Positions 26,424-31,563 of a DNA stretch of 64,000 nucleotides are shown one piece after another. Each line of letters opens with the position of its first letter. The stretch's first letter is position 1. The notes under the pieces are model-generated. The model searched no databases, was not told the origin of the DNA, and saw only the letters and a list, made by a program, of their open reading frames with translations. Source of the DNA: Pyramidobacter sp. YE332 (GTDB lineage: Bacteria; Synergistota; Synergistia; Synergistales; Dethiosulfovibrionaceae); contig NZ_CP133038.1 in NCBI RefSeq assembly GCF_033060595.1, forward strand, positions 620,001-684,000, given 5' to 3'. Position numbers and translations under genes: made by a program.

Positions 26424-26452
26424 TTGTTATTCATGTTTATTTTTGTTATACT
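26424..26452 (+). promoter_or_regulatory. Plus-strand promoter candidate P1
   Basis: TTGTTA (26424-26429), 17-bp spacer, TATACT (26447-26452). It lies in the AT-rich part of the divergent gap and reads towards the exporter operon. Confidence 0.55.
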
Positions 26453-26517
26453 TTATTCACGTTAAGCTTCGAATAGGCGCGGTTATAGGATTCGGGAAAA
26501 TATATGACGCTGAGGGG

Positions 26518-26546
26518 TTGACAACGATGTCCGAGGCCACTATGCT
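26518..26546 (+). promoter_or_regulatory. Plus-strand promoter P2 in front of CACAG repeat
   Basis: Consensus -35 TTGACA (26518-26523), 17-bp spacer, -10 TATGCT (26541-26546). Start would fall near 26553, at the beginning of the tandem repeat. Confidence 0.7.
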
Positions 26547-26548
26547 GT

Positions 26549-26609
26549 CACAGCACAGCACAGCACAGCACAGCACAGCACAGCACAGCACAGCACAGCA
26601 CAGCACAGC
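26549..26609. repeat. CACAG pentanucleotide tandem repeat, about 12 units
   Basis: 61 bases of uninterrupted CACAG units. Five-base units of this purity are prone to slipped-strand changes in copy number. Read from ATG 26527 they encode a short SQHSTA-type repeat ending at TAA 26616 (29 codons), with no good sign that it is translated. Confidence 0.95.
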
Positions 26610-26709
26610 TAACTAAAACTGTTTCCTTCGATAGAGTGAAAAAGCCTCCGGAAGGCGGCGGAACGACCAGGTTTTGTGGTCGTTCCGCCGCCTTCCGGAG
26701 GCTTTTTTT
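26553..26709 (+). ncRNA. Candidate small RNA: CACAG repeat plus terminator hairpin
   Basis: Promoter P2 would produce a transcript of about 155 nt: a (CACAG)n tract, a short AU-rich linker and a 31-bp terminator hairpin. The hairpin stands between two divergent genes, so it is not needed to end either of them, which implies a transcript of its own. Alternatively it is an attenuated leader of the exporter operon. No similarity to a known RNA family recognised. Confidence 0.45.
26639..26709. terminator. Perfect 31-bp terminator hairpin
   Basis: Left arm 26639-26669 and right arm 26677-26707 are exact reverse complements with loop GGTTTTG. The left arm starts with five A and the right arm ends in seven T, so it can terminate from both sides. 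Longest perfect stem noticed in the window. Confidence 0.9.
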
Positions 26710-26828
26710 GTAAATGTACGTTTGTGTGACAAGTTGAACGTTCTATGATGTAAAAGCTAACGTAAGGATTATGTCGTGCGCTTTTTCGCTCATGGGACCA
26801 AACGATTTTCCGGATTAGGAACTGTTCC

Positions 26829-26871
26829 GATCCTGATTTTCAATTAAAAAGCACAATTGAAAATCAGGATC
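26829..26871. repeat. 17-bp inverted repeat just before exporter operon start
   Basis: Perfect arms 26829-26845 and 26855-26871 (starting GATCCTGATTTTC) around AAAAAGCAC. Only nine bases separate it from the AAAGGGG ribosome site of the permease gene. It could be an operator or an RNA structure controlling translation. Confidence 0.75.
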
Positions 26872-26896
26872 AGTTTACGGAAAGGGGCTTCCTCAT

Positions 26897-27682
26897 TTGA
26901 GAATCCTAGCCAGAGCCAAAGAGATCTACGCTTACCGCGAGATGGTCTACAACCTCGTGCGGCGGGATCTTCACGGACGCTACAAACGTTCTTTCTTCGG
27001 TTTTGCCTGGACGTTTTTGAATCCTCTTTTACAGCTCATCGTCTATACGATCGTCTTTTCAACCATCATGCGCGCGGGGATCGACAAGTTTTATTTATTC
27101 CTTTTCGTCGCCCTGATCCCGTGGACTTTCTTCAGCGCCTCGCTCACCGGCGGCTGCGGTTCCGTCCTGGCCCAGGGCGGCATGGTCAAGAAAATCTACT
27201 TCCCGCGCGAAGTCCTGCCCATCGCCTTTGTCACGACAAGCTTCGTCAACATGCTCTACTGTTTCGTCGTCGTGTTTGCCGTCGTCGCCGTATCGGGCGT
27301 CGGCTTCAACCTGCGCGCGCTCCTGTGCCTCCCGTTCGTCATGCTCGTCGAGTACGTCATCTGCCTGGGCGTCGCCCTGCTGACGTCGGCCGTCACCGTT
27401 TACTGCCGCGACCTGGAGTACATGCTCGGCATCGTTTCCATGCTGTGGATGTACCTCACTCCGGTCCTCTACCCGATCTCCATGGTGCCGCGGCGGTACC
27501 TGCCGCTTTTCATGCTCAACCCGATGACTCCGGTCATCACGGCCTATCGCGACATCCTTTACGCCGCCAAAGCGCCGGAACTCTCCACGCTGCTGCACTC
27601 GCTCGCGATGGGCGTTCTCGTTTTGGGCGTCGGCTGGTACGTCTTTGAAAAACTGCAGCGCGGTTTTGCGGAGGAACTGTAA
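26897..27682 (+). CDS. ABC-2 polysaccharide exporter permease (Wzm/TagG-like)
   Basis: Inner-membrane permease of 261 residues with six hydrophobic segments. The family pattern is clear: cytoplasmic N-terminus with RRDLHGRYKRSFFGFAWTFLNPLLQL, then VKKIYFPREVLP and MLNPMTPVITAYRDILY. Start is TTG 26897, after AAAGGGG at 26881-26887; no ATG lies near the family N-terminus. With the next gene it forms a two-component exporter for O-antigen, capsule or teichoic-type chains across the inner membrane. The upstream hairpin may affect its translation. Confidence 0.88.
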   Translation: MRILARAKEIYAYREMVYNLVRRDLHGRYKRSFFGFAWTFLNPLLQLIVYTIVFSTIMRAGIDKFYLFLFVALIPWTFFSASLTGGCGSVLAQGGMVKKIYFPREVLPIAFVTTSFVNMLYCFVVVFAVVAVSGVGFNLRALLCLPFVMLVEYVICLGVALLTSAVTVYCRDLEYMLGIVSMLWMYLTPVLYPISMVPRRYLPLFMLNPMTPVITAYRDILYAAKAPELSTLLHSLAMGVLVLGVGWYVFEKLQRGFAEEL

Positions 27683-27684
27683 CG

Positions 27685-28428
27685 ATGAAAGCCATTCAGG
27701 TCCATGACGTCGCCAAACGATTCAAGATCTATTACGACCGAAATCGAACGTTGAAAGAACGCCTGCTCTTTCGCAAAAGGAACCGCTACGACGAGCGCTG
27801 GGTCCTCAAAGACGTTTCGTTCGACATCGAGCAGGGGGAAGCCGTCGGCCTCGTCGGCGAAAACGGCTGCGGCAAAAGCACCACGCTCAAGCTGCTCTCC
27901 CGCATCCTCTTTCCCGACCGCGGCACGATCGCCGTCAACGGCCGCGTCTCCTGCCTGATCGAGCTGGGCGCCGGCTTTCATCCCGACATGAACGGCATCG
28001 AGAACATCTACCTCAACGCCGCCATGTTCGGCGTCGGCCGCAAGGAAACCGGCAAACGCCTCGACCGGATCATCGCCTTTTCGGAACTGGAACCCTTCAT
28101 CGAAAACCCCATACGCACCTATTCTTCGGGCATGTACATGCGCCTCGCCTTTTCCGTGGCGATCAACGTCGATGCCGACGTGCTGTTGATCGACGAGATC
28201 CTTGCCGTCGGCGACATGAACTTTCAGGAGAAATGTCTCGCCCGCCTGCGCGAGATCAAGGAGCGCGGCGCCACCATCGTCATCGTCTCCCACTCGCTGG
28301 GACAGATCGAAGCCTTCTGCGACCGCTCCATCTGGATTGACGGCGGACGCGTCCAGGCCGACGGCACCCCCGCGGAGACCCACGCCCGGTACGCCGCGTT
28401 CATGAACGGAAAGAAGGCTCAGCCATGA
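27685..28428 (+). CDS. ABC exporter ATP-binding protein (Wzt/TagH-like)
   Basis: ATPase partner of the preceding permease, 247 residues. Motifs: Walker A GENGCGKST, the exporter-subfamily signature YSSGMYMRLAFSVA, Walker B VLLIDEILAVGD and IVSHS. The stretch LIELGAGFHPDMNGIENIYLN is typical of polysaccharide exporters. It lacks the C-terminal carbohydrate-binding domain of some Wzt proteins. It starts two bases after the permease stop and overlaps the next gene by four bases. Confidence 0.9.
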   Translation: MKAIQVHDVAKRFKIYYDRNRTLKERLLFRKRNRYDERWVLKDVSFDIEQGEAVGLVGENGCGKSTTLKLLSRILFPDRGTIAVNGRVSCLIELGAGFHPDMNGIENIYLNAAMFGVGRKETGKRLDRIIAFSELEPFIENPIRTYSSGMYMRLAFSVAINVDADVLLIDEILAVGDMNFQEKCLARLREIKERGATIVIVSHSLGQIEAFCDRSIWIDGGRVQADGTPAETHARYAAFMNGKKAQP

Positions 28429-29627
28429 TTCCCGCTTTATTGGGTATGAAAAACGCCATGGGAGAAATGCGCGCGCGGCCGCTGCGGATCCTTCAGGTCG
28501 TCGACAAGCTCACGCCCGACAGCGGCGTTGCCGGCGTTGTCCTGCGCTATCACGACGCAATAGACAAAAAACGAATCGTCTTCGATTTTCTCGCGCATGA
28601 AGAGCCCGACCTCTGGATCAGACGCAGACTCGAAAAAGACGGCTCGAAGATCTTTGTCGCCCCGCCGCTGCGTCTCGCCGCGCTTGTTCCCTATCTTCGC
28701 TTCCTGAGACGCTTCTACGCGGAGCATCCCGAGTACGCGATCGTCCACGGTCACCTGCCCAACGCCGCGCCGTTTTATCTGGGCATGGCCCGGGCGGCCG
28801 GCGTGCCCGTGCGCATCGTTCACTGCCACAACACCCGCAGCGGCGACACCGTCCCGAAGAGGATCAGGAACAGCCTGCTCTTCAAGCTGATCCCCTTGTG
28901 CGCCAACGTGCGCTGCGCCTGCTCGGAGGCCGCGGCCAGGTTCCTTTTCGGCGCGCGCAACGGGCGCGTCAAACGTCCTTATCATTTGGTCCGCAACGCT
29001 TTGCCGCTGGGACCGTACCGTTTCCGCCCCGAGGTGCGGGAACGGGCCCGCGGCGAACTTGGCCTCGGTACGGACTGCCTTGTGGTCGGCCACATCGGCC
29101 GCATGTGCCCGCAAAAAAATCAGGCCTTTCTGCTGAAAATCTTTGCCGCGTTTTACGCCAAACACAAGAACGCCGTGTTGATGCTGATCGGCGACGGCGA
29201 ACTGCATGAAACCCTTCGCCGCCAGGCCCGCGAACTCGTCCCCGAAGGAGCCGTCCTCTGGCTGGGCGTGCGAAACGACGTCCCCGCGCTCCTTCAGGCG
29301 ATGGACGTTTTCGTCCTGCCCTCGCTTTACGAAGGTTTGCCCCTTGCCGCGCTCGAGGCTCAGGCGTCGGGCTTGCCCTGTCTTTTGTCGGCGAACATCA
29401 CAGAAGAAGCCCGCATCGTCCCCGGCTTGGCGCAGTATATCAGCCTGCAAGAAACGCCCGCCGAGTGGGCCGCCCTGATCCAGCCCCGGCACGAAAGAAC
29501 GTCCGACACCGGACGCTTCTTTGCCGCCGCCGGCTACGACATTTCCACTGAAGCGGCAAAACTAGCAACACTGTACGAAAAACTTCACGAAGAACATTGC
29601 CGGCAACGCCCGGCGGAGGAGCCTTGA
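28425..29627 (+). CDS. GT4-type glycosyltransferase
   Basis: Retaining glycosyltransferase of the GT-B fold, 400 residues. The N-terminal domain begins PLRILQVVDKLTPDSGVAGVV; the C-terminal nucleotide-sugar domain has GHIGRMCPQKNQAFLLKIF and the EX7E motif in PSLYEGLPLAALEAQASGLP. ATG 28425 overlaps the exporter ATPase stop (ATGA), so it belongs to the same operon and probably builds the exported polysaccharide. Donor and acceptor unknown. A start at MKNAMG, about seven codons later, is possible. Confidence 0.87.
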   Translation: MIPALLGMKNAMGEMRARPLRILQVVDKLTPDSGVAGVVLRYHDAIDKKRIVFDFLAHEEPDLWIRRRLEKDGSKIFVAPPLRLAALVPYLRFLRRFYAEHPEYAIVHGHLPNAAPFYLGMARAAGVPVRIVHCHNTRSGDTVPKRIRNSLLFKLIPLCANVRCACSEAAARFLFGARNGRVKRPYHLVRNALPLGPYRFRPEVRERARGELGLGTDCLVVGHIGRMCPQKNQAFLLKIFAAFYAKHKNAVLMLIGDGELHETLRRQARELVPEGAVLWLGVRNDVPALLQAMDVFVLPSLYEGLPLAALEAQASGLPCLLSANITEEARIVPGLAQYISLQETPAEWAALIQPRHERTSDTGRFFAAAGYDISTEAAKLATLYEKLHEEHCRQRPAEEP

Positions 29628-29629
29628 CG

Positions 29630-31563
29630 ATGAATGAAACGACAAAACAAACACGGCCGCAGAATCGCTACGACGTCAGCTGCCTCGTGACCTTTCACAG
29701 CGAGGGCTATCTGGCGCACCGTACGCTGACTTCGATCGGCATGTGCCGGGACTACGCCGAAAAGCGCGGACTCCATGTCGAGCTGGTGCTCGTTCTCGAC
29801 AACGCCGATGCCGTGACCGAAGCGGTCGTCGCCGGGCACTTCGCCGTACGCAAGGACGATCAGATCCTACGCGTACATGAACGCAGCGCCCCTATGTCAC
29901 GGAATAAGGGAATACAGGCTGCCAAGGGAGAATTCATATCCATTCACGATGGAGATGATTATTATTCTGAAAATCTCGTCTATGAAGGAGTGGCGCAGTG
30001 CAAAGCACAGCCGCGCCTGATCACGCATGCCGAGATAAATATCGGATTCGAATCCGAGTATTACATGTATAGAGTTGGAAATATCCGACACGGCGATTAC
30101 ACAAAATACGATCTGCTCACTCAGAATCCTCTCAGCGTGCAAACCATAGCACCTCGACACGTATTTATACAGATCCCTTACCAGCCAACTGGAAACGGTT
30201 TTGGTTACGAGGATTGGCATTGGAATGCCGAGACGATAGCCGCCGGATTCGAACACGTTACAGTTCCGCATACATTCATGTTCTATCGGCGCAAAAGACA
30301 AGGATCAGTACTTGCAAGAGAATCTGCCAGCAAGTCTTTGATTCGTCCGAGCCGTTTGTTCGATCAGCTGGAATCGCCAATGCATGAACTGTCCTCCTCC
30401 ATTTTGCGAGACAACCTGTCGGAAAACACCTCTCGAAAGCCGGTCGTTTCTGCCGATCTTGCCGATGTCGTAAAAACTGCCCGAAGAAAATCACGGCTCT
30501 ACGCTTTTCTTAAGCCGCCGGCTAAAAAACTGATTTCCAAATTGCCCGACGACCTGCAGCCGCCGGCAAAGGCTTTTGCGTGGTCTTTTCTGGCACTGGC
30601 CCGTTCGGTCAGAGAACATGTCAGAAACAAACGGCCGACGCCGGCTGTCCAGACGTCGCCAGCCGTCCCGCAGACAGAAAAGCCGGCGCCAGAAATTTTC
30701 CCCACCGTCAGCATGGCCGAATGCGTTGCGGCGCTCAAGAGAATCTCGCGCCTCGACTCGTCGCTTCATCCTGACGTGAACCCGCCGCTTTATGAATACC
30801 GTTTTGTTTCGGACGACCGTCTCGGCCGACTCTTCGCTCTTTTGTACAATCCCATAAAGGGGCAACGTTACGATGCAGTGTACCTCGTGCCGTGGCTTGT
30901 GCCCGGCGGCGCCGATCTGATGACGATCAACTTCGCCAACACTTTGGCGGGACAAGGCAAAAAGGTCCTTGTGATCAGCACTTTGCCCTGCCCGTCACCA
31001 TGGCGAAACCAGTTGGCCGAGGGCGTGGATTTTGTCGACCTCGGCAACGCGGCCGACGGATTTTTCAACGAGGACAAGAAGCTTCTTCTGGCGCGCATCC
31101 TTTTGCTGGAAATCGTCAAAAAATGCCCGAGACTCATTTCTTCGTTTATGGTGAACCGTATGCGGAAGAGGACAGACACCTGTACAGTTCTTTCAAATCT
31201 CTGCCGAACGTCACTCTTGGCGGAAAATATAGTGGTTTTGTCTCTCTGCCGGTCAAAGAGTGCTTCTGCTTTCTCTACACCAGCGCGTATGACGGCCTGC
31301 CCAATGTTCTCCTCGAAGCTGCTGCAGCCGGCTTGCCCACAATTGCGCCCGACATCGGTGGCATCAGCGATTTTATCAACGATCAAACCGGTTGGCTCGT
31401 GGGACAGGATGCATCGGCCGATGATTATGCGAGAGCAATGGAAGAGATGCGCAGCGCGCCGGAACTGCGCCGGACAAAAGTCCTTGCGGCGCAGAATCTG
31501 TTGCATGTACGCCACAATGAAACGGCTTTTAAAAACAGTATATTAAAGTTCTATGGATTCTAG
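29630..31563 (+). pseudogene. GT2-GT4 two-domain glycosyltransferase, internally deleted and frameshifted
   Basis: Starts at ATG 29630 after CGGAGGA. Residues about 10-240 form a GT2 (GT-A) domain (VSCLVTFHSEGYLAHRTL, ISIHDGDDYY, GFGYEDWHW). After a linker comes the start of a GT-B domain (YLVPWLVPGGADLMTINFAN). Near 31115 the frame passes from LLLARILLLE straight to EIVKKCP, which in relatives belongs to the far side of the domain, so roughly 150 codons seem missing. At 31129-31130 one base is also lost: the true ending (THFFVYGEP, YDGLPNVLLEAAAAGLP, DIGGISDF) continues in another frame to TAG 31563. The central part is AT-richer than the ends. Confidence 0.8.

Follow-up and report, generated by a model that had tools for sequence, protein, structure and literature searches.

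The window, by which we mean the whole 64,000-nt stretch of Pyramidobacter sp. YE332 DNA that was analysed, contains genes for an ABC exporter and a glycosyltransferase, preceded by a leader in which a pentanucleotide array is followed by a strong hairpin (Table 1). The initial annotation had listed a promoter (P2), the repeat and the hairpin. All of these elements were found in their places and far beyond chance, whereas the upstream promoter P1, the Shine-Dalgarno (SD) sequence and ATG before the array, and the pattern of stops in the three frames had been missed. P1 scored 11 with its TG extension, and an equally good site occurred in 0 of 40 shuffles. The array was the only CACAG array of at least four units in the 2.8-Mb genome, and the reversed control pattern gave none. 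The RNA folding z-score of the hairpin was -10.9, and none of 200 shuffles was equally stable.

Table 1. Leader and exporter features (positions in the window)
Feature	Position	Strand	Description
Upstream promoter P1	26424..26452	+	TTGTTA-N17-TATACT, extended -10 (TGTTATACT); predicted to transcribe SD, leader ORF and array
SD-like GAGGGG	26512..26517	+	9 nt 5' of ATG; purine-rich SD at equivalent position in most Synergistota/Bacillota homologues
Promoter-like pair P2	26518..26546	+	TTGACA (26518-26523)-N17-TATGCT (26541-26546), 10/12 matches; adjoins array; same geometry recurs across phyla
Putative leader ORF, present frame	26527..26616	+	MSEATMLSQHSTAQ...HSTAN; ATG 26527; TAA 7 nt past array; predicted OFF/low state
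(CACAG)12.2 array, slippage element	26549..26609	+	61-bp perfect tract, 100% matches
TAACTAA right behind array	26610..26616	+	Stops in two of three frames
Hairpin and T7, predicted intrinsic terminator/attenuator	26639..26709	+	Arms 26639-26669 and 26677-26707, perfect 31-bp inverted repeat, 7-nt loop; from inverted repeat and RNA folding
TAA closing read-through frame	26711..26713	+	Just past terminator; stop ends 104 nt behind array
Second palindrome	26829..26871	.	17-bp arms, TGATTTTCAATT-AATTGAAAATCA; past terminator, ahead of exporter
ABC-2 type exporter permease (Wzm-like), operon gene 1	26897..27682	+	TTG start, SD AAAGGGG at 26881
ABC exporter ATPase (Wzt-like)	27685..28428	+	
Glycosyltransferase (group 1)	28425..29627	+	

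The array, whose unit length is not a multiple of three, lies inside a short putative leader ORF with its own SD and ATG. If the unit number were changed by one or two, the stop would come 3 nt behind the array, or the frame would stay open through the entire hairpin to 26713. The three frames are thus closed 3, 7 and 104 nt past the array, and the hairpin begins 30 nt after it, so that one frame stops well short of the hairpin and another passes it. The hairpin itself follows the array and precedes the first structural gene, and is placed as attenuator terminators are in homologous leaders. Beyond this frame logic, the leader peptide showed no coding signature. The idea that the array forms the N-terminus of a real protein in the window was rejected, since the read-through frame, which closes at 26713, yields no protein-like product.

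When the DNA between the terminator and the exporter start was scanned for promoters, no conserved promoter-like site was found. The stretch is 88.5% identical to that of another Pyramidobacter species, and a separate exporter promoter behind the terminator was rejected because the sole TATGAT there carries substitutions. Since such a site is lacking past the terminator, the exporter probably depends on read-through from the leader. The palindrome in this stretch is probably a regulator site or a second RNA hairpin, and taken alone the reading as a regulator site is possible. Its exact sequence is unique within the species, and degenerate copies or half-sites are numerous in other Pyramidobacter genomes.

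Further downstream, a glycosyltransferase gene (29597-31563) is frameshifted in the window genome, with a junction near 31100. At this junction, another strain of the species has about 376 bp of additional sequence and apparently a longer copy of the glycosyltransferase; it thus seems that the window strain has suffered a deletion in this gene.

Array length and leader conservation in Pyramidobacter

The repeat number is not fixed. It is 12.2 in the window, 8.2 in the same-species strain and 5.4 in another Pyramidobacter species. When the two strains of the same species were compared, 600 of 600 bases were identical on each side of the array, and the repeat number was the sole difference in 1.2 kb of flanks. 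The three Pyramidobacter genomes represent three different frames, with stops 7, 3 and 104 nt past the array, indicating that the frame shifts with the unit number between isolates.

Between species, the identity was 98.3% from 26431 to 26548, a block that starts at the position of P1, 96.6% in the linker and 98.6% in the hairpin. Outside the leader, the flanking non-coding DNA was 85.0% and 88.5% identical, and the coding regions compared were 93.5% and 95.6% identical. The conservation thus begins at P1 and ends past the hairpin. A single substitution in the linker, from TAACTAA to TAACTAG, preserves both stops. Since the leader retains 97-99% identity against the lower identity of the flanking non-coding DNA, it is under strong purifying selection, with the array length free to change. 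A variable leader of the exporter operon, one of the two possibilities raised in the initial annotation, in which slippage changes the repeat number and tunes the surface-polysaccharide genes, is therefore well supported by the variation of the copy number within the species, the conservation of the leader and equivalent leaders elsewhere.

Leaders of the same layout in other genomes

CACAG arrays were detected in 18 genomes of two genera when 183 genomes of the order were searched. These sites were picked regardless of promoter, and TTGAC was present at equal distance in 15 of the 17 readable ones. When about 85,000 species genomes were scanned with a TTGAC-spaced pattern, 94 loci emerged, belonging to Synergistota, Treponema, Lachnospiraceae, Ruminococcus, Selenomonas and a small number of other groups; in 78 of these loci, TTGAC and the array were 29-32 nt apart. 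When the required distance was made 26 nt longer, 188 genomes yielded no independent loci, only the same loci with long arrays. Among 71 loci chosen without regard to a -10, 55 had a -10-like hexamer (at least 4/6 matches, spacing 16-18), compared with 15.4 in the shuffle null (maximum 28 in 500 shuffles). In most loci the array begins 1-3 nt behind this hexamer. Across loci, TTGACA keeps a constant distance to the array, and the position of the ATG varies. P1-like promoters further upstream are enriched in Synergistota; in Bacillota the value was 8.6 versus 8.1 in shuffles, which is no clear enrichment. The Treponema leaders have no obvious SD and ATG.

It was also observed that a consensus -35/-10 pair adjoins arrays at a near-constant distance in several phyla (26518-26549 in the window; loci L076-L169, L242-L256 and L262-L264), and that this holds even where the start codon precedes the predicted transcription start.

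The letters of the unit are variable. AGAGC, ACAAG, CTCGG, CCACA and four heptamers fill the same slot, for which reason CACAG was rejected as a sequence-specific RNA or DNA motif, and paralogous leaders, some within one genome, carry (ACAAG)n, (AGAGC)n or (CTCGG)n. The nine unit types are all of 5 or 7 bp, none is a multiple of three, and all are stop-free in every forward frame. Across these genomes, conservation concerns the position of the array and a unit length not divisible by three, and does not extend to the letters. In 400-kb samples that took in places already known to hold arrays, six of the seven 5- or 7-bp arrays of one Synergistaceae genome, including four heptamers, and the only two arrays of a Butyrivibrio genome lay directly behind a promoter pair. 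Two further ideas were set aside: CACAG lacks a YC dinucleotide, which disfavors a rut site for Rho, and there was no evidence of a mobile element, with only two matches in 2.9 million viral contigs. A literature search by the letters of the repeat returned primers only.

In one genome (G115, loci L242-L256), the heptamers GTTCGCA, ATCGCCT, GACTCAG and GCCCAAC occupy the array slot before different genes, and a near-identical promoter-SD module is common to two of the heptamer arrays. This combination of one module with different heptamers suggests that arrays are born anew at one place.

In the leaders of Bacillota and Treponema, the array is separated from the SD of the following gene by a strong hairpin with a T-run. 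The products of the genes behind the leaders are secreted or surface proteins (Big_2, Flg_new, LRR, choline-binding repeats) or have polysaccharide functions (ABC-2 exporter, Wzz, UbiA, MBOAT, acyltransferase). In two Lachnospiraceae loci, a Clostridiales-1 RNA (RF01699), a family without assigned function, lies directly behind the array-terminator leader (L104, 1638-1794, minus strand; L113, 1993-2204, plus strand).

To read the stop statistics, only dissimilar leaders were kept, which reduces kinship and leaves the remaining leaders not fully independent, and expectations came from mononucleotide shuffles: of 32 leaders from several phyla, 23 had a stop within 10 nt past the array (13.4 expected, 0 of 2000 shuffles), and 13 had a second one within 20 nt (6.0 expected). 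On the same basis, 17 of 19 leaders with a terminator had one frame ending at least 20 nt short of the hairpin and another reaching it (10.4 expected, 0 of 2000 shuffles). For many leaders the source is a metagenome assembly, in which the arrays may have been collapsed to a shorter length. Several Synergistaceae have the array joined in frame to a protein without its own start, or have a long frame that ends at the next start codon; because of this, arrays in the leader position are translated in at least part of the class. In four Synergistaceae loci (L012, L041, L048, L075), the long frame that leaves the array closes at the start codon of the following gene or overlaps it, which suggests frame-dependent translational coupling, replacing or besides attenuation.

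Attenuation model and alternative readings

Taken together, the sequences lead us to give a probability of roughly 0.6 to the reading that the leader is a phase-variable transcription attenuator of the Wzm/Wzt exporter operon, of the kind known from the pil1 locus of Streptococcus gallolyticus. The array, its variation among strains, the frame arithmetic, the terminator, the conservation of the leader and the layout elsewhere are observed. Transcription from P1, starting at about 26459, would produce a leader with the SD GAGGGG and a short ORF running from the ATG into (CACAG)n. Replication slippage would add or remove 5-bp units, and ribosomes would accordingly emerge from the array in a different frame. 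Two of the frames would bring them to a TAA within 3 or 7 nt, where they would leave the RNA about 25 nt before the hairpin; the 31-bp terminator would then form, and the exporter operon would be off or low, with a short terminated RNA still made. In the third frame, ribosomes would translate the whole hairpin to the TAA at 26713 and keep it open, and RNA polymerase would proceed into the exporter and glycosyltransferase genes, which would be on. It is from the observed layout that we infer the use of P1 and of the ATG, the translation, the efficiency of termination, the rate of switching and the effect on the polysaccharide.

In favor of this attenuator model we count the strain and frame variation, the leader conservation, the excess of stops behind arrays, the stop-free 5/7-bp units, the terminators elsewhere, the translated arrays of other Synergistaceae and the experimental proof for pil1. 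Against it stand the P2 hexamers next to the array, which are conserved across phyla, and it is mainly for this reason that the probability is not put higher. The lack of clear P1 enrichment in Bacillota, the Treponema leaders and the leader peptide also count against it. P2 would start transcription inside the array, downstream of the SD and ATG, yet it is conserved across phyla with fixed spacing; if it is the working promoter, its transcript would lack both signals. P2 could be the actual promoter, with the frame pattern arising from something else, or it could play a further role. As for the initial annotation, which named P2 as the promoter, P2 may be real, but the best model starts the transcript about 95 nt further upstream. 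The comparison has exposed a conserved promoter-array geometry.

One alternative, which we regard as unlikely although it is the best placed of the alternatives, is an untranslated variable leader. The P2 transcript would start inside the array, and the repeat number would change only the length of an unstructured 5' end; this length would act as a rheostat on read-through of the terminator, on RNA stability or on early elongation, with no translation involved. The -35/-10 pairs at a spacing of 16-18 in 55/71 loci, with the array 1-3 nt behind the -10 in most, the constancy of the TTGACA-array distance as opposed to the ATG position, and the failure of the shifted distance to give independent loci in 188 genomes all speak for such a leader. 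It leaves unexplained, however, the stop-free 5/7-bp units, the clustering of stops right after the arrays, the differing relation of the frames to the terminator and the in-frame fusions in Synergistaceae. Moreover, identical units keep the first transcribed bases constant, and there is therefore no obvious length sensor.

A more doubtful proposal is that P2, which could not produce the mRNA bearing the SD and ATG, serves something other than ordinary expression, for example raising array mutability through initiation at the array edge, or making a decoy transcript; this would be a dedicated promoter-driven mutability module of phase-variable attenuators.

The initial annotation had also offered a free small-RNA gene, in which P2 would drive an RNA of about 155 nt that ends at the 31-bp terminator and acts in trans. 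The promoter-like pair, the strong terminator and the high conservation of the leader would fit such a gene, but the homologous units are leaders, each lying immediately ahead of a surface gene, with its terminator right before the SD of that gene, and the exporter has no conserved promoter-like site of its own past the terminator. One unit can stand in for another between paralogous leaders, which speaks against base pairing through the repeat, and no Rfam family covers the leader (cmscan gave 0 matches at the gathering score for the whole window). We thus consider a free small RNA improbable and did not retain this claim. Least probable, by a little, is a neutral microsatellite kept by chance beside an ordinary terminator: pentanucleotide slippage escapes mismatch repair, and variation is possible without function, but the flanks are under strong purifying selection, the layout recurs upstream of surface genes in at least three phyla, and both Butyrivibrio arrays and 6/7 Synergistaceae arrays (400-kb samples, known array places included) lie at a promoter pair.

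Comparison with known systems

The 7-bp repeats of Haemophilus influenzae hmw1A and the tetranucleotide repeats of Moraxella catarrhalis uspA2 are simple-sequence-repeat loci in the promoter or 5' leader. There, as proposed for the window, a surface gene changes its expression through slippage repeats close to the point where its transcription begins. Their effect is graded by length, not by frame, and we know of no leader ORF or terminator logic described for them. The frame-specific stop pattern across the leaders argues for frame over length as the effective variable.

Coding contingency arrays, such as those of type III mod genes (MSTAQHST... in Streptococcus), share the units GCACA/GCAGA and the frame switching by slippage. 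They differ in that the array lies inside a protein gene, whereas the frame effect in the window would act on the transcription of a separate operon. Among the loci detected here, Streptococcus mod-like genes starting MSTAQHSTAQHST... (L090, L099, L100, L108, L126, L138, L146, L149, L152) have coding GCACA arrays right behind the start codon, the classical arrangement of phase-variable DNA methyltransferases. The Streptococcus genomes searched also contained a leader (L263) in which (GCAGA)14 is followed by a terminator, and TTGAC lay exactly 31 nt upstream in three of seven Streptococcus GCAGA arrays that had been found without requiring TTGAC.

The closest system is S. gallolyticus pil1, in which (GCAGA)22 lies in a leader peptide gene whose stop is 49 bp before the terminator, and frame variants ending in or at the hairpin give high expression (PMC3894217). 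Mutation of the RBS or ATG causes loss of expression, deletion of the terminator causes a gain, and the effect is sensitive to chloramphenicol (PMC3894217). The window leader resembles pil1 (and pil3) in having a pentanucleotide array in a short leader ORF with its own RBS, one frame that stops shortly past the array and others that end in or beyond an intrinsic terminator, the location of this terminator upstream of a surface-structure operon, and a repeat number that varies between isolates (PMC3894217). The differences are the unit (CACAG instead of GCAGA), the phylum (Synergistota), the target (a polysaccharide ABC exporter instead of a pilus) and the terminator, which is a 31-bp perfect stem of about -64 kcal/mol in the window against the -18.7 reported for pil1 (PMC3894217). 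The pil1 mechanism was proven by experiment, whereas the window leader is known from its sequence.

No report of the mechanism outside Streptococcus was found in the open-access literature, which is weak as evidence of absence; as far as could be found, it has been demonstrated only for the pili of one Streptococcus. The window leader is probably a new member of the pil1 kind, which it would extend to another phylum and to a polysaccharide exporter as target. If this is true, the exporter of a surface polysaccharide would be stochastic in this genome, and the repeat number modulo 3 would be a simple rule for predicting the on or off state from sequence reads. Commensals of at least three phyla, uncultured as well as cultured, appear to rely on the same mechanism for switching their surface proteins and polysaccharides.
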